64,000 bases of DNA. It comes from Nitrospira sp. Its GTDB lineage: Bacteria > Nitrospirota > Nitrospiria > Nitrospirales > Nitrospiraceae. Below the pieces are notes generated by a model. It was given only the letters and a program-made list of their open reading frames with translations, searched no databases and had not been told where the DNA came from. The stretch's first letter is position 1. Each line of letters starts with the position of its first letter. The stretch covers positions 254,902 through 318,901 of the forward strand of contig CP092081.1 in the NCBI GenBank assembly GCA_022226935.1. The letters are read 5' to 3'. Shown here in pieces: positions 20,274 to 43,117 of this stretch. Made by a program: the position numbers and the translations under genes.

Positions 20274-20309
20274 CCTGACATTCCCTTTCGCTCGAAGGGT
20301 TCAGTCGTA

Positions 20310-20545
20310 ACAGCCGTCAGTTGGGTCTCCTGACTTGCGGATCCTGGTTTCCCTGCGCCTTCCCGACCAAAGAAGTTCTCAGCGCTCAGCCTTCAGCGAA
20401 CAGCTTCACGCTGATGGCTGACTGCTGATAGCTCACGGCTTCCTCGAACAGTGGCTTCTTGCAGAGTCACTCCCCGCTTACAGTGGCGGCACCGTGATGG
20501 TTTTGCACCATCTTCCCCGACGCTGACGGCGTCTTCCTGATACTC
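20310..20545 (-). promoter_or_regulatory. Cobalamin riboswitch upstream of btuB
   Basis: Read on the minus strand, the 5' part has the conserved 'GATGGTGCAAAACCATC' stem followed by 'GCCGCCACTGTAAGCGGGGA' (about 20508-20468). A second GCCACTG and 'GGGAAGGCGC' follow, and the 3' B12 box reads 'AGTCAGGAGACC' (about 20336-20325). These are hallmarks of the AdoCbl riboswitch. After the aptamer no T-run terminator appears. Instead a 5-bp hairpin (20283-20287 with 20295-20299) covers the btuB ribosome-binding site. The variable side stem at 20373-20455 is filled with TCAGC-type short repeats. Confidence 0.93.
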
Positions 20546-23737: not shown

Positions 23738-23789
23738 TGCACCCGCACACTCATCCTCGCCTATTCCCCAGCCCACGAGGGAATAAAGG

Positions 23790-24025
23790 GTCTCTCCCTG
23801 GGCAGGTCTTCTGGCTCATGGTTCATCCTACTCCCCGCGCCTTCCCAGCTGGCTCGTTATTCGTCCCTCGTGAATCGTATCTCGCGTCAGAAATCCAGAC
23901 GCATCACGCTTCACGAACAACGCTTCACGGCCACGCGAGTGGCATCGGCGGGTTTCGTCCCCATTTACAGCGGCGGGACCGCGAGGGTTTTGCACCCTCT
24001 TCCCTTCACCCAAGGTGTCTGAAAA
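23790..24025 (-). promoter_or_regulatory. Cobalamin riboswitch upstream of btuFCD
   Basis: On the minus strand the conserved core reads 'GAGGGTGCAAAACCCTC', then 'GGTCCCGCCGCTGTAAATGG', then 'GATGCCACTCGCG', 'GGGAAGGCGCGGGGAG', and the B12 box 'AGCCAGAAGACCTGCCC' near 23816-23800. These are diagnostic for the AdoCbl aptamer. It is followed by an intrinsic terminator at 23707-23737. The side stem at 23851-23935 is a long imperfect palindrome made of CGTGAAGCG-type units. Confidence 0.95.
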
Positions 24026-24033
24026 CGCAGCAA

Positions 24034-28636: not shown

Positions 28637-29692
28637 TTATCCGATATGTCGATACAAAAGCCGTCCGGCCAATGTCAGCAGACTGTTTGGCATTCGCGCA
28701 AATACTTCCTTCGCGCAACGAATCTTCAAATCATCTCGGCACCGAGAGGCAGTCTCAAGAGGCGCACGCCAGGTGCTCAAGGTGGAGCGTTCGGCGGACC
28801 AGCGCCCCTTAAACGCGATCAGGCCTGGATTGTCGAGATCCGACCGCCCCCAGTCGAATATCTCGGCCGCTGCTTGCTTAGCATCTTTAATCGCTTCCCA
28901 GAAGAGCATGGCTGTTCCCCCGAGATTATTAAAACGTGTATCGGAACCACCATATTTGTAGACCATGCTCTTTCCATGACGGAGAGTTAAGATGCCTGCA
29001 ACAGGCTGCCCTGCCTTGGAAGCAATCCTGATACAGACATTTTCTCCCAAACAGAACACCAGATTGCGGAACCACTCAATGGGTGGTGGGGGAAGGTGGT
29101 GACGGGACCGGGTCAGTTGAAGCAAGCCATAAAATTGATGGAGCAAGTCGCCGCTGCGGCCCGCTTGATAGCTCAGCTCCTCTCGTTGTGCGCGGCTGAT
29201 CTTTCGCTGGATGCAGTTCTTGTGAAATCCCTGATACAACCGATCTAGCCCTTGCCGAAGATCAAGCCGATGCAGGCAATAGGTCGTAACCTTGCTGAAA
29301 TTTTCGCCAACATTTAGAAGGGAATCAGCGGACCTCAGCTCCACATACTTCCAACGTTCCTGGTTTCTCATTTTCTCTACACAGCTTGACAAAATCGTGA
29401 ACTGCTCGGGCTGCTCCACGAGCGGCTCACAGTGATCTGAAAGGGGTAAAGAGACAAGTCGATTGCCGGTAATCCGGCTGCGGACGACACAAAATAACAG
29501 TGCATTCGTGAGTTTTTCGGAATGGGCGGACGTGGTGAAGGCGACAGGATCGTATCCGTAAGTCTCCTGCAACGCCCGCAGCCACCCGCGAGTATGGAAC
29601 ACCGAGCCCTTCGGATGCCGATCGACAAAATCAGGCCACCGCGAATCGTGAAGCGGATCGATTGCATAGCCTCCACCTAGTGTCGTCGACAT
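28637..29692 (-). CDS. FemAB-like protein associated with the exosortase system
   Basis: A 351-residue GNAT-fold protein of the FemAB/BioF2-like group often found beside PEP-CTERM exosortases. Motifs include 'HPKGSVFHTRGWLRALQETY', 'NCIQRKISRAQREEL' and 'KYGGSDTRFNNLGGTAMLFW', followed by 'FDWGRSDLDNPGLIAFKGRW'. FemAB relatives transfer aminoacyl groups to cell-wall precursors, but the acceptor here is unknown. It lies 24 bases after the exosortase and 87 before the PEP-CTERM gene. Confidence 0.87.
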   Translation of the reverse strand: MSTTLGGGYAIDPLHDSRWPDFVDRHPKGSVFHTRGWLRALQETYGYDPVAFTTSAHSEKLTNALLFCVVRSRITGNRLVSLPLSDHCEPLVEQPEQFTILSSCVEKMRNQERWKYVELRSADSLLNVGENFSKVTTYCLHRLDLRQGLDRLYQGFHKNCIQRKISRAQREELSYQAGRSGDLLHQFYGLLQLTRSRHHLPPPPIEWFRNLVFCLGENVCIRIASKAGQPVAGILTLRHGKSMVYKYGGSDTRFNNLGGTAMLFWEAIKDAKQAAAEIFDWGRSDLDNPGLIAFKGRWSAERSTLSTWRAPLETASRCRDDLKIRCAKEVFARMPNSLLTLAGRLLYRHIG

Positions 29693-29716: not shown

Positions 29717-30724
29717 TTAGTGGTTTCCTGCTGCCAACTTCTCGGCCTGCGCTATACGCGCACCATCAATCGCGAAGTGGGATCCGACCTTTATCTCAAG
29801 TCGACGCAATAGCCAGACCAATGAAAAAAGGACAACAAGAGAGATCAGGAAGAGCGGAATTCCCCCATTCCTGTGCAAGGCACTGTTGGTGATATAGATC
29901 GGATCGACGTAATTGGCCACCAGTGTTAAACCGACGATACGGAAGGCGTTCTTAATAATCGCGAAAGGAATGATGAGCGCTACGATACTTATCTTTCCCC
30001 AAAGGGAGTGAAGCAAAAAATGGCCGGCCACGAGACTGGTCAGGACGAGAGCCAGCGTCGAACGGATTCCGCTGCATGCTTCCGCAATATGAATCGTAAA
30101 ATTCGATAATTTGAACAAAAACCCTTCACGAATGACTGGTATTCCGAGAATCGAGAATAGAAAGGCGGTGACTTCGGCGGAGCTACGCTGCAAAAAGCGA
30201 ATGATCGCGTCCAAGAGATGTGATGGTAGCGGGACCAAAAAAAGAAGAAACAGCAGACCAAATGACACTCTGAGACAGCGCACGAGCCCAAAGCAGAACA
30301 AAAAGATGCCCCAGCACATCACCACGAAGGCCAACATTGCCGTAGATAAGTGGTCTGGATCTCCGGTACCTGCATCCGTCACCCAGTAACATGCCCCCCC
30401 CGCCCCCATTAATAGCAATCCGAGCCATGGACTCCATTCTGTCGAACTCGATAATGTTTTGCGGTCACGGTAGAGAACGTAGAGGCTCACCCCTGGTATC
30501 AGGACCATGTGAGAATAATGTTCCTGCTGCTGCGTCAGAGAAATTAATTGGACGAGCGGATGCCAGAACGCTACGCATGTGGTCAGTACCAACAGAGCAA
30601 AAAGAACATTGCGATGGGTCGGGGTGAATGGCAACGTCTTGCTGAAAATTCGAGGGACAGAGGACGACGCAGGCTCGATGGTTCCGCAACAGACCCCGAC
30701 CTGAATTTCTTTTTGATGCTGCAC
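29717..30724 (-). CDS. Exosortase
   Basis: A 335-residue multi-spanning inner-membrane protease of the exosortase family. Exosortases cut PEP-CTERM proteins and are thought to pass them to an extracellular matrix or cell-surface anchor. The three conserved catalytic residues are visible: C217 in 'AEACSGIRS', R262 in 'NAFRIV' and H284 in 'LHRNGG'. The early signature 'YSHMVLIPGVSLYVLY' is also present. There is no fused EpsI domain. The subclass cannot be assigned by eye. It lies downstream of the sugar transferase in one operon. Confidence 0.94.
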   Translation of the reverse strand: MQHQKEIQVGVCCGTIEPASSSVPRIFSKTLPFTPTHRNVLFALLVLTTCVAFWHPLVQLISLTQQQEHYSHMVLIPGVSLYVLYRDRKTLSSSTEWSPWLGLLLMGAGGACYWVTDAGTGDPDHLSTAMLAFVVMCWGIFLFCFGLVRCLRVSFGLLFLLFLVPLPSHLLDAIIRFLQRSSAEVTAFLFSILGIPVIREGFLFKLSNFTIHIAEACSGIRSTLALVLTSLVAGHFLLHSLWGKISIVALIIPFAIIKNAFRIVGLTLVANYVDPIYITNSALHRNGGIPLFLISLVVLFSLVWLLRRLEIKVGSHFAIDGARIAQAEKLAAGNH

Positions 30725-30768: not shown

Positions 30769-31884
30769 CTAGCAGGCCCCCTTGCCGCTGATCATGGCTG
30801 CGGGGGTTGCAACGAGAATTTTGATGTCTCCCCAGAAAGACATGGTTCTTGCGTAGCGGAGGTCCAGACGTACCATCTCATCAAATGTAGTACGGCTTCG
30901 TCCCACCACCTGCCAGAGTCCGGTAATGCCGGGTTTAGCATCCAGCACTCGCCTACGATGCCATGGTTTGTACCGCTCAAGTTCGTACCAAAGCGGAGGC
31001 CGCGGCCCGACGAGCGACATTTCGCCGATCAATACATTCCACAGTTGAGGCAACTCATCGAGACTGGTTCTTCGGAGAAGATGTCCGATTGGAGTGATCC
31101 TTGGATCGTTGGTTAATTTGAAGAACTTGTCCTTCGCTTCATGATCTTTTTTATCGCTGGACGTAATAAACCAGCTGACGTAACTATGGTGCACCCCATG
31201 GTCGGCATTCTCGTACATCGTCCGGAACTTGCACATCATGAAGGGTTTCATCATCTGCCCCACCCGCACCTGGCGAAAGATGACCGGCCCCCGGGACGAC
31301 AATTTGACTAGCCCTGCGATCACCCCGAGCAACGGGGAAAAGACTATCAACAGCAACAGACTCAGTAGGATATCCATCCCCCGCTTGACGATATGAAAAT
31401 CGGCGATCGCCCATTGATCCTGGAGTTCCGGGAAGAAAGACGGGTCCATCTCTTGATGTTCGGCTCTCTCCAGTTTCCAAGGCTCCGGATAAGCATGCAA
31501 ACTGATCGACAGTCGTGGGGCCAATTCTCCCTCCAACTGACAGGTGAATTCTTTCTGAAAATCTGCCTCGAGCCGATTGCAAATCGTGACCATATTCGCA
31601 GTCTCAACCTCAGGAACGAGCAGACCCATGATGGACTGCCGTTCATACCAGCCGAGAATATCGATATCCGACTTGACTGCCGACAAGGCCCCCGTGATCG
31701 CGTCATACACGGTCCGAGACGTAACATGTCCGCTGTCCTCCGCACTAATCAAGAGCATCACCATCGCCTGCCCGGATCGCTCCGTGCGCTGGCGCTCTTG
31801 CCTGATGCTAGCTTTAAAGGACAATTCGTCCAGTATCGTGTGAGCCGTTCCGTGCATCTTCCTTTCCACGCATGAGGAAATCAT
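30769..31884 (-). CDS. Initiating sugar-phosphate transferase with a GGDEF-like N-terminal domain
   Basis: A 371-residue protein. Residues about 1-150 form a GGDEF-like fold lacking the GGDEF motif ('DILGWYERQSIMGLLV'). One hydrophobic helix follows, then the bacterial sugar-transferase domain: 'GPVIFRQVRVGQ', 'MCKFRTM', 'LRRTSLDELPQLWNVLIGEM', 'SLVGPRPPLW' and 'KPGITGLWQVVGR'. Such enzymes load the first sugar phosphate on undecaprenyl phosphate. The start at 31884 has GAGGGGA six bases upstream; a longer frame overlaps the upstream dehydrogenase gene. It is the only priming transferase in the window and presumably starts the polymer built by the 35-62 kb locus. Confidence 0.9.
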   Translation of the reverse strand: MISSCVERKMHGTAHTILDELSFKASIRQERQRTERSGQAMVMLLISAEDSGHVTSRTVYDAITGALSAVKSDIDILGWYERQSIMGLLVPEVETANMVTICNRLEADFQKEFTCQLEGELAPRLSISLHAYPEPWKLERAEHQEMDPSFFPELQDQWAIADFHIVKRGMDILLSLLLLIVFSPLLGVIAGLVKLSSRGPVIFRQVRVGQMMKPFMMCKFRTMYENADHGVHHSYVSWFITSSDKKDHEAKDKFFKLTNDPRITPIGHLLRRTSLDELPQLWNVLIGEMSLVGPRPPLWYELERYKPWHRRRVLDAKPGITGLWQVVGRSRTTFDEMVRLDLRYARTMSFWGDIKILVATPAAMISGKGAC

Positions 31885-31897
31885 ACGGGCTCCCCTC

Positions 31898-32971
31898 TCA
31901 TAACGTCTGAACACAAGACTCATTGCTGGCGAACGTTGAGGCTGCCGCAGCGGGAAGACCGTCGCGACTCTGGGATAGGACGATCTCTTTATGCTGTCTC
32001 AGCGACTGTTCCGCCGCCTCCAGAATCCGCACGACACGTAGTCCCGCCAATCCATCATTGAAGGGCCGTATTCCGCTCTTGATGCAATCCAGGAAATACC
32101 GCGTTTCAAGATGAAGGGCCTCAAGCTCTTCGATCTTGGGCGCCCACATGTCGCCGGTCCGGTAACTGACCAATGCTTTATGGATGCCCTGTTCCGTCCC
32201 CAGATCAGCCCCTTTGTCGTACACACGAACCTTTTCGGCCGGATCCAAATCATTCCATACCAGCATCTTTTTTTGTCCACCGACCAGCGTCGTGCGGACC
32301 TTCACCGGCGACAGCCAGTTGACATTAATATGGGCAAGAACGTTGTTGGGGAAATACACCGCCAAATGCGCGATGTCCTCGAGGCCATTGACATGGGCCG
32401 TACCGGTTGCCACCACCAACTCCGGCTCAAGCCCGATCAGATAATCCATGATGGACAGGTCATGTGGAGCCAGGTCCCACAAGACGTTCACGTCATGTTG
32501 AAACAGCCCTAGATTCACCCGCGTGGAATCATAGTAATAGAGCGGGCCCAAGGTGCCGTCATCGACGAGTTGTTTGATCTTCCGCACGGCGCCTGTAAAC
32601 AGAAACGTATGATCCACCATGATCCGCAGATTCTGGCGTTCTGCCAACTCGACAAGCCTTGCGGCTTGTTCGGCGGTGGCCGTAAAGGGTTTCTCCACGA
32701 ACACATGCTTTCCATTCTCCAAGGCTTTCCTGGCCAGTTCGTAGTGATAGGAGACCGGTGTCACGATAGCGACGGCGTCAATTTCAGCAGAGGTCACGAT
32801 CTCGCTCACATCGACTGTGACACGCACACCAGCGTGCCGGCTCGCCACGCGTGCGAGAGCCTTGGGATTGGTGTCGCAGACAGCCACGACTTTGCAGTCT
32901 TCATGTGCCGAAAAGTTACGCACAATGTTCGGCCCCCAATACCCGTAACCGATCACGCCTAGTTTCACCAT
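31898..32971 (-). CDS. Gfo/Idh/MocA family sugar dehydrogenase
   Basis: A 357-residue NAD(P)-dependent oxidoreductase. The Rossmann motif is in 'KLGVIGYGYWGPNIVRNFSA', the family EKP motif is in 'HVFVEKPFTATAEQA', and 'YYDSTRVNLG' and 'WDLAPHDLSIMDYL' match WlbA-like sugar dehydrogenases. These oxidise UDP-N-acetyl-D-glucosaminuronate at C3, which a DegT aminotransferase and a hexapeptide acetyltransferase then convert to a diacetamido sugar. Both partner types are encoded at 55977-57822, which supports a shared pathway. It heads the exosortase operon. Confidence 0.85.
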   Translation of the reverse strand: MVKLGVIGYGYWGPNIVRNFSAHEDCKVVAVCDTNPKALARVASRHAGVRVTVDVSEIVTSAEIDAVAIVTPVSYHYELARKALENGKHVFVEKPFTATAEQAARLVELAERQNLRIMVDHTFLFTGAVRKIKQLVDDGTLGPLYYYDSTRVNLGLFQHDVNVLWDLAPHDLSIMDYLIGLEPELVVATGTAHVNGLEDIAHLAVYFPNNVLAHINVNWLSPVKVRTTLVGGQKKMLVWNDLDPAEKVRVYDKGADLGTEQGIHKALVSYRTGDMWAPKIEELEALHLETRYFLDCIKSGIRPFNDGLAGLRVVRILEAAEQSLRQHKEIVLSQSRDGLPAAAASTFASNESCVQTL

Positions 32972-33266
32972 GGTGTCACTCCTTTACTCATGTTACGCCG
33001 ATTAATACATCTCACTCGTCACGAACGAGCAAGTTGAACAGAGAACGACTGCAGCGATTGAATTGATCGATCCTCCATGAAGCTTCACGAGCATTGTTTG
33101 TAGGGAATCGCGGAGGGTTTCCCCGCGAGAATCCGGAGCGATGAGGAAAAGTGTCTTAACCGGGATTTCGAATACTGAGCGGAGAGCTGGGCCTTGGAGA
33201 CACTAGCCGAGACCGAAGATTCATAATCTCAACTGAAGTGCGAGCGGAGAGGTGCGGACGAGGTCT

Positions 33267-33668
33267 TCAGATTTGTGCTACCTCATCATGTCGACATACC
33301 CGGATCTGGACGGACCATGTCTCTTCGGGGTAGAGTCGGGCTCGCAAACTTTCTTGCAGGCGTAACTGAAGGCCATTGTGGCCGTCTTCCACAGAATTTC
33401 CCCGCATCGTAGCCAAGAGCGCTCCCACGATGTGCTCATCCCGATACCATCCGATGCAATCCGTAGCCCGGAGATTTCCGGAGAGAGAGTCGATCACCAC
33501 CGTGGAAAGATGTCGCCCCATCGGGACAATGATCCCTTGTGCATTACTACAGTAGACGAGAAGGATTCGGCAGGTTTGTCCGGATCGTGCGGAGCGCCGG
33601 GTTTCACTTTCCAAGAGATGCCGGAAGGCCACTTCTCTGTAGACGTCACCCGGTGTAGATTCCCTCAT
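33267..33668 (-). CDS. Stand-alone GGDEF-like domain protein
   Basis: A protein of about 133 residues. Its core 'RRSARSGQTCRILLVY' and 'CIGWYRDEHIVGALLATMR' aligns by eye with the N-terminal domain of the sugar transferase at 30769-31884 ('RTERSGQAMVMLLI', 'ILGWYERQSIMGLL'). Neither has a GGDEF motif or the residues of an active diguanylate cyclase. The frame is open to 33833, but the ATG at 33668 is preferred because the domain begins three residues later and GGCGGAC precedes it. Its function is unknown; a sensory or scaffold role toward the transferase is a reasonable guess. Confidence 0.6.
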   Translation of the reverse strand: MRESTPGDVYREVAFRHLLESETRRSARSGQTCRILLVYCSNAQGIIVPMGRHLSTVVIDSLSGNLRATDCIGWYRDEHIVGALLATMRGNSVEDGHNGLQLRLQESLRARLYPEETWSVQIRVCRHDEVAQI

Positions 33669-34365
33669 ATCTGTCCGCCGACCATTCAGCCTTATTACTG
33701 CGAGCAGCGCGGTAAAAACGCCGCCCGCCTTCCTGCCCACACGAGACCAATTGAGCAAAGAAAAAATTCCCGGCCCTGGAGTTCCTGGATGCATATAACT
33801 TGCTTGTGCGGCTTCTATAAAGAGATCCCGCAATGTCGGACAGTGTGTTAACGAAGACGGTGCTGTCCCGAGGCCACCGGATGGCGGCTAATCAGAGGAG
33901 TGAGGCGACGGAGCGCATGGGATGAACTTGCGGCACGACATTTAATGCTCTACTAATCGGACTATTCCCAGGCCGTTATTGTAGGGCTCTCCCTACACGA
34001 TTGGACTAACAAGGCCTTACCTTCAGCTAGGGCTGTATAGGCTGTGTTGAGAACCATATGATCTTTCAGCGGGTTAATAGTGCTGGGCGTAGTCCTAAAA
34101 TTCCAGCCGGAACGGGCATCTGTTTTGCGTATCTCGAGAGCAGATGGTATGGTGCTGAATCAGTCAGGGAAATCTTGACGGGATTCTTCACCTTCTCTAA
34201 TTTACTGCTTCGTATGGTGGCGTATGGCTGACAGGGTGTGAGACATGAACACCTCACGTTAGGTGTCGCAGAAGTAACGCAGAGCGTTGGCATCTGGCTC
34301 ATCCCGCTACACAGCGTAACTTCGTAGTTTCTCAGGTTATCGGTACAACACATTGGAGTAAGATT
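33669..34365. other. Divergent intergenic region before the beta-helix gene
   Basis: About 700 bases separate two outward-facing genes; part is an open frame continuous with the downstream gene. It contains a perfect 7-bp hairpin, TGTAGGG CTCT CCCTACA, at 33980-33997. A sigma54-like GGGCAT-N5-TTGC lies at 34114-34128 on the plus strand. No gene of recognisable family was seen. Confidence 0.45.
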
Positions 34366-41443: not shown

Positions 41444-43060
41444 TTAGAGGAATCGTCTGAGAACGGGGGCCAGTCTGTCTCTCGCCTCTGTAAGTTGCCT
41501 TCGCGCCACAGGCCAAAAAGGAAGGCCGGGAGCAGCTTTCTGATCAAAGAGAGGTAAAGCGGGGGGCTTCAGGGAAATTTCGATCTCTTTTCCAGGCCGC
41601 ACAGAGATGGGTTCATCCGTAAGTTGATATGTCCATTCCGAACCGTCACTTTTGGCTTTCCATGCAACAGGCATACATTCCACTTGCTGCCACAGCGGTC
41701 GCTCCACCAATATATGGCTGATCCCATCTGGCATGCGGATCTCTGCGCGTCTCGTGAGCATTCTTATCCGAAGGATATTTCCTTCCACCTTTTGTGCATA
41801 ATGCGCCCTGCAGATTCCCTTCATGTCAGACCAATGAACCGTTCCCAGGGAGTTGATAAATCCTGCCAGTTCTGAAAAAAGCTCAAGCCCATCTGCGAGA
41901 TCATGGTGGTGGCCCACGGGAATAATTGGCTGACCCAGTAAGGCGGCCACGAGTATGCTATTTTGACAAGTCTTCGAAATTCGAAACCTTGGGATCACCA
42001 CCAGCCCTGCAATAATGTCAGCAGGCATCACACCAAGAGTTTGGACCCAGGGAGCCTGCCGGTTATAGTGATATAGCGACCCCGTTGAGATGGAAACAGC
42101 CTCAAATCCCAATTGTGCCATTTGAGCAAGTGCTCTCTCGCTGCATGCTCCGTGTGGAGGAGCCATCACTTTTGAGACGTCCACACCATAACAGCGTTCG
42201 AATTCGGCGATTCGGCTAAGGGCCTGCCCTAAATTATCGCTGATACCTTGGTCGATATAAGGTCTGGCCAATTCCTGTGCTACATGGTTATTCCCATGGA
42301 TCAGCAAGGATAGTTGATGGTGGTACTTCCGAAATAACAACGCTGTCGGTTTGTGGACAAACCACGCATCCAGTGGAATGGTTGCGAAGCTGACGTGGTA
42401 GTTATGCGTTTGCGCGTGTGTCGCGATTTTGGCGAAATCAACGAAACCATAGGTTCGCCAGTGCAAGTTGGGATCGTCAAGCATGAAACAGGCTTGTAAC
42501 GGCGGTTGCTCCCAGCTGTGATCCGCTGTCAACGCACGCAAAAAAATTACAAATGGCAGCAATGACAGGAATTGGTTTCCATGGAACCGTTGAAATAACG
42601 CCTCACCGTCGTTCAATTCTGGAATAGGTGCAACGCTATAGTGATGTTGCACGCCTGCCGTTTCCTGCATCGCCCAGATCGGTGCTCCTTCTTTCGAGGC
42701 GAGCACTTGCATATTGCCTGATAATTGAGGCAAGGCCATCAGGCTACTGGCTTCATTGGCAGCGATCTTCCTAGCGGCTAGTATGCGCGGGAGAATTGGG
42801 TTACGGGAGAATTCAATAACGGATGATTCCCCACAGGGGACGCGCCGGCTGCTTTGTACGACTGTGTAGGAGGGACGGTCTCGAGACGTATTGTCATGGT
42901 AAAGATCACCATCCGCTTCATGGATAAACCATGCATCAATGCCGGCGGCCTCGTCAAAAGTCCGTTCCTCAAAGCGCACGCCGACGACCTCCCCGAGGGC
43001 GTCAAGCATGTTACGAATGCCCGCAGATTTAAGAGGAGTTGAGATTCCTATCGTTCTCAT
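41444..43060 (-). CDS. NodB-fold (polysaccharide deacetylase-like) protein
   Basis: A 538-residue cytoplasmic protein. A central TIM-barrel-like region resembles NodB/CE4 esterases: 'CFMLDDPNLHWRTYG' supplies an acidic pair, 'LLIHGNNH' a histidine pair and 'KVMAPPHGACSERALAQM' the PPHG motif. The N-terminal 150 residues resemble nothing familiar. 'VPVGHHHDLADGLELF' may contribute metal-binding histidines. It starts at an ATG (43060); a GTG at 43096 extends it by 12 residues without a ribosome-binding site. It may deacetylate an intermediate or polymer, but no signal peptide is seen. Confidence 0.65.
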   Translation of the reverse strand: MRTIGISTPLKSAGIRNMLDALGEVVGVRFEERTFDEAAGIDAWFIHEADGDLYHDNTSRDRPSYTVVQSSRRVPCGESSVIEFSRNPILPRILAARKIAANEASSLMALPQLSGNMQVLASKEGAPIWAMQETAGVQHHYSVAPIPELNDGEALFQRFHGNQFLSLLPFVIFLRALTADHSWEQPPLQACFMLDDPNLHWRTYGFVDFAKIATHAQTHNYHVSFATIPLDAWFVHKPTALLFRKYHHQLSLLIHGNNHVAQELARPYIDQGISDNLGQALSRIAEFERCYGVDVSKVMAPPHGACSERALAQMAQLGFEAVSISTGSLYHYNRQAPWVQTLGVMPADIIAGLVVIPRFRISKTCQNSILVAALLGQPIIPVGHHHDLADGLELFSELAGFINSLGTVHWSDMKGICRAHYAQKVEGNILRIRMLTRRAEIRMPDGISHILVERPLWQQVECMPVAWKAKSDGSEWTYQLTDEPISVRPGKEIEISLKPPALPLFDQKAAPGLPFWPVARRQLTEARDRLAPVLRRFL

Positions 43061-43117
43061 ATGCTGTTTGTCATCAGGCCTTGCGTTGTCTGACACTTTA
43101 TAAAACCACGCCTCGTG

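Follow-up and report, generated by a model that had tools for sequence, protein, structure and literature searches.

The locus lies on the minus strand of the window (the whole 64,000-nucleotide stretch of Nitrospira sp. DNA analysed here), and at its centre is an open reading frame of 384 aa (30769-31923) that fuses a priming transferase to an additional N-terminal domain. The C-terminal part (30769..31398) is a monotopic phosphoglycosyl transferase domain (Bac_transf, PF02397, 1.2e-64), and the N-terminal part (31399..31884) is a degenerate GGDEF-fold domain. Translation of this fusion probably begins at the ATG at 31884, giving 371 aa, since that codon comes directly after the stop of the preceding gene and behind a good ribosome-binding sequence. 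The preceding gene, the third within the range of an earlier note on this DNA, encodes a Gfo/Idh/MocA dehydrogenase similar to UDP-GlcNAc 3-dehydrogenase (31898..32971), and upstream of it stands the gene for a standalone degenerate GGDEF-fold protein (33267..33668; 133 aa counted from the ATG at 33668). Its relatives bear N-terminal extensions of 30-60 residues, frequently with a W/R-rich hydrophobic stretch, so the gene may start at the ATG at 33794 instead, which would add a probable extension (33669..33794) for a total of 175 aa. Downstream of the fusion are an exosortase of the EpsH/Xrt family (29717..30724) and then a FemAB-like acyltransferase of the PEP-CTERM/XrtA-associated kind (28637..29692). 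All of these genes share one strand, as does a 550 aa open reading frame without any Pfam match that lies inside the glycosyltransferase cluster (41444-43096).

The transferase domain of the fusion is intact, with both the PF02397 match and the DE catalytic dyad (D289-E290, positions 31054-31059) in place, and a hydrophobic stretch after KRGMD is a putative re-entrant helix. In its catalytic domain, its dyad and its possession of an extra N-terminal domain, the fusion resembles the bifunctional or large monotopic transferases (WbaP, WcaJ, TIGR03025/TIGR03013). Unlike these, it matched only PF02397 at E<=1, the PF13727 DUF was not detected, and the transmembrane bundle is absent from its N-terminus, where the degenerate GGDEF domain stands in its place. 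In the large transferases, the DUF mediates dimerisation and is responsive to UMP (PMC10942596).

The earlier note had proposed that the first 150 or so residues of the fusion and the standalone protein are alike, and this is borne out: both open reading frames lie on the minus strand where it had placed them, and BLASTP aligns the two with 29/112 identical residues (26%), 42 bits and E=3e-10. The patterns R..RSGQ and (C/I).GWY....I.G occur in both proteins and the GG(D/E)EF motif is missing from both, again as described. A search of the complete 4.23 Mb genome recovered two copies of the domain, this pair only, and the similarity between fused and standalone copies recurs in 23 further genomes of the family with identical gene order. 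That E-value and the recurrence in related genomes rule out chance similarity.

As single sequences, the GGDEF-like regions of the pair have no domain match in Pfam or NCBIfam, and the GGDEF family itself (PF00990) gave no match at E<=5 among 50 aligned members and none at E<=1 for the window proteins. Profiles, structure models and co-occurrence nevertheless agree on the GGDEF-like assignment made in the earlier note. When profiles were searched against the PDB, the best match of both the fused and the free profile was the diguanylate cyclase 3ign, in GGDEF register (E of 0.0021 and 0.021, respectively), and profile-profile alignment (hhalign) with GGDEF domains from the same genome and its relatives gave 93.4% and 92.6% probability. 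AlphaFold (AF2) models reach a pLDDT of 83 for the free protein and 72 for the fused domain, the latter a model of moderate confidence, and their elements run helix-strand-helix-strand-strand-helix-strand. GGDEF structures account for all of the top 50 Foldseek matches of the free model and all of the top 16 of the fused one, with a best E of 5e-6 for each; PAS, PDZ and receiver folds are absent from the top matches. Both regions have a GGDEF fold, rather than unrelated ones, and I regard this as settled.

Neither domain can be an active diguanylate cyclase, because no copy retains the catalytic site. In an alignment that includes true GGDEF domains, 60/60 sequences have a deletion of the guanine-binding loop (PleD N335/D336) and a replaced GGDEF core, and the position of the Arg preceding the core is W in every one; no sequence has GG(D/E)EF. 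In the standalone protein of the window, G73-W74-Y stands where an active site would have R-Y-G-G.

The inhibitory site (I-site), at which c-di-GMP acts allosterically in GGDEF domains, tells a different story in the different copies. Fused copies from nine other Nitrospirota families have both the Arg and the Asp of RxxD in 13/13 sequences, and free copies have both in 22/22, whereas the Nitrospiraceae fused copies keep the Asp in 22/24 and the Arg, mostly replaced by Ser, in only 1/24, a set of counts that is not independent evidence because the loss of the Arg amounts to about one event. Every fused copy has a conserved K/R at +32 (14/14 and 24/24), and 20/22 free copies have one at +36; this residue is a candidate counterpart in space of PelD R402/PleD R390. 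In the window, the standalone protein has R67 (codon 33468-33470), D70 (33459-33461) and a basic R103 at +36 (33360-33362); the fused domain has S85 in place of the Arg (codon 31669-31671), retains D88 (31660-31662) and carries R117 at +32 (31573-31575). The RxxD by which degenerate-GGDEF c-di-GMP effectors are recognised is therefore present, correctly spaced, in the free protein and in the fusions of other families, with the reservation that it can persist without ligand binding, and it is absent from the window's fused copy, for which the loss of the Arg makes PelD-like binding by that half impossible. This pattern of keeping and losing I-site residues makes the earlier suggestion of a nucleotide-responsive pair both sharper and testable.

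The two genes travel together. The fusion is present in 24/175 Nitrospiraceae genomes, and in 23 of these 24 the free gene lies just upstream, with the Gfo/Idh gene invariably between them and the same order throughout. The one exception (G113) lies at a contig edge, and so does the one genome with only a free gene (G019). In other Nitrospirota families the Gfo/Idh gene adjoins the fusion in 12/13 loci (the remaining one is at a contig end), and no free copy is adjacent to the fusion in any of the 13. I say adjacent because six loci in other Nitrospirota (L198-L203) encode small GGDEF-like proteins of 155-185 aa that have RxTD and, after it, IGR/IGL or the like in place of the GGDEF core. I rejected these as standalone copies: they lack the GW and have a more canonical GGDEF C-terminus, and so form a different group of degenerate GGDEF proteins. 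Among 16 named loci, all except one are assigned to Nitrospira or Nitrospiraceae; the other, labelled 'uncultured Nitrosospira' (isolate CMX, L164), holds the Nitrospiraceae module, and its label looks doubtful.

The link to exosortase loci is looser. An exosortase gene lies downstream of the fusion in 15 sampled loci, the window included, and exosortases occur in 23/24 genomes with the fusion vs 92/151 without it (p=0.0004, uncorrected for phylogeny), but adjacency is not constant: six fusion loci with ample flanks have no neighbouring exosortase. The association raised in the earlier note thus stands as an enrichment and not as a fixed arrangement. At one locus in another family (L133) the fusion sits in a full XrtA/PEP-CTERM polysaccharide cluster, between the XrtA export, chain-length and AAA genes and the sugar-modifying genes, which is where a priming transferase is expected. 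The present transferase nevertheless scores far beneath the TIGR03013 cut-off (145 vs 393 bits). At that locus an aminotransferase and a hexapeptide acyltransferase adjoin the Gfo/Idh gene, an arrangement that hints at a 3-amino sugar derivative as the primed sugar.

Tracing the history of the domain gives three clades (free copies, Nitrospiraceae fused copies and fused copies of other families; support 100, 98 and 73), and the free clade groups with the fused copies of other families (support 94) in a tree whose outgroup branch is long. The single Nitrospiraceae fused copy with the Arg belongs to genome G032 and is the first branch of its clade; its free partner is the first branch of the free clade, and both G032 copies retain the Arg. 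The three clades and the early-branching G032 form the pattern expected from a duplication followed by division of labour. Additional copies occur here and there. In another family, an independent free copy on a separate contig (L130:8497-9033, G395) is sister to its own genome's fusion, and G087:C7:3150-3521 holds the remains of a free copy, interrupted by three in-frame stops. Five genomes of one genus carry second, diverged free copies (L061-L064; also G128:C1:133620-133988). These are 16-21 kb away from another exosortase gene, with PhoX and GDSL genes close by in the loci whose neighbours were scanned.

Could the free protein simply be a neighbour left by an old duplication, with some other role such as binding the Gfo/Idh enzyme or the exosortase, and no action on the transferase? 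The Gfo/Idh gene does intervene between the two, and no transferase lies beside those of the second free copies that were sampled. However, the free gene of the module is confined to fusion-bearing loci and always within one block, and RxxD is mostly gone from the distant paralogues (the Arg is missing in 3/4 sampled). Free and fused copies also co-vary beyond what the flanking sequences, the Gfo/Idh gene and the transferase part, account for (partial r=0.30, permutation p=0.003), which weakly supports contact between the two proteins. I therefore consider a mere neighbour very unlikely.

The reading that I prefer, and hold at about even confidence, is that a degenerate-GGDEF module, made up of the pair, regulates the monotopic phosphoglycosyl transferase, and that its duplication moved ligand binding to a partner in trans. 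Both catalytically dead domains would regulate the enzyme that commits the cell to exopolysaccharide. Other Nitrospirota families that possess it have a single fused domain, whose RxxD and basic residue some 32 positions further along would make it a cis-acting c-di-GMP sensor. Nitrospiraceae would have duplicated this domain, the free copy keeping RxxD and the fused copy dropping the Arg while keeping the Asp and the basic residue. The free protein would then bind c-di-GMP and dock onto the fused domain, perhaps completing a composite site across both, and docking would switch polymer priming on or off at the membrane. That activation is the direction of control is a guess by analogy with PelD and BcsE. 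The more specific proposal, in which c-di-GMP directly controls the committed priming step through a split inhibitory site with RxxD from the free protein and the rest from the fused domain, is a tentative one that I think less likely than not.

The genome encodes GGDEF proteins and has 32 PilZ matches, which makes c-di-GMP signalling in the host probable. Within the 64-kb window I found no c-di-GMP riboswitch, only two cobalamin riboswitches a few kb from the exopolysaccharide locus (20302-20542 and 23784-24028, both on the minus strand; 78.7 and 89.2 bits). An intact transferase, a GGDEF-like domain in the place of the DUF and the probable availability of c-di-GMP together favour the role of a c-di-GMP sensor. 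The ligand may instead be another nucleotide (UMP, a UDP-sugar, GTP or (p)ppGpp), with the pair still regulatory. The DUF of WbaP binds UMP/UDP/UTP, and UMP inhibits full-length WbaP (PMC10942596); since the fusion has no such DUF, another domain may have taken over its job. Guanine nucleotides besides c-di-GMP can also bind GGDEF domain proteins, as in the structure of PleD with ppGpp (9g85), which is itself among the Foldseek matches of the fused-domain model. Yet the residues deleted are those of the guanine-binding A-site and the residues retained are those of the c-di-GMP I-site, and I find a different nucleotide unlikely.

It is also improbable, in my estimate, that the domains have a structural role alone and no ligand at all, with dimerisation or anchoring of the transferase as the task of the fused one and the free one pairing with it as a scaffold. 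This would fit with the dimerisation of large transferases through their N-terminal DUF (PMC10942596), with the lost Arg of the fused copy, and with the most conserved feature of the domains being GW(Y/F), which stands in place of the GGDEF core and is no known ligand motif. It does not explain why the Arg and Asp are invariant in the 22 free and 13 other-family fused copies when the remainder of the domain is so divergent, an invariance implying that precisely the RxxD site has to bind a ligand or make a contact.

Sensing of c-di-GMP by the pair would have parallels in PelD, PopA and BcsE, which likewise have a GGDEF fold, a lost active site and a retained RxxD; PelD and BcsE are also placed in exopolysaccharide loci. 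In PelD, the residues at the c-di-GMP site are R367, D370 and R402 (PMC8461298), and the third basic residue is thus at a similar distance to that seen here. These proteins differ in acting on synthase-dependent polymers or proteolysis (PMC8461298, PMC5052742), whereas the present domain forms part of a monotopic priming transferase, has a free duplicate and has GW(Y/F) for the GGDEF core, and its c-di-GMP binding is putative. Control of a priming transferase by a small partner has precedent in Myxococcus xanthus, where EpsW activates EpsZ (PMC12802240). In both cases a small separate protein is the proposed post-translational controller of a Wzx/Wzy-type priming transferase. However, EpsW belongs to the phospho-receivers, and EpsZ is a transferase of the large type, having a transmembrane bundle and DUF, whereas the free protein here, a putative partner by genomic linkage and co-variation, is a GGDEF-like homologue of the enzyme's own N-terminal domain. 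A priming-transferase fusion with a free duplicate had no match in the literature that I searched, and may have been noticed before.

For synthase-dependent systems there are good descriptions of how c-di-GMP controls exopolysaccharides. Post-translational control of Wzx/Wzy-type pathways is described as incompletely understood (PMC12802240), and a sensor-like domain on the priming enzyme, found across Nitrospirota, would give these pathways a direct link to c-di-GMP. Since Nitrospira-like nitrifiers form flocs and biofilms during water treatment, control of their matrix is of practical interest. The duplication also offers a compact natural experiment, in which the Arg has been lost from the fused copy of one family and kept in its free copy.
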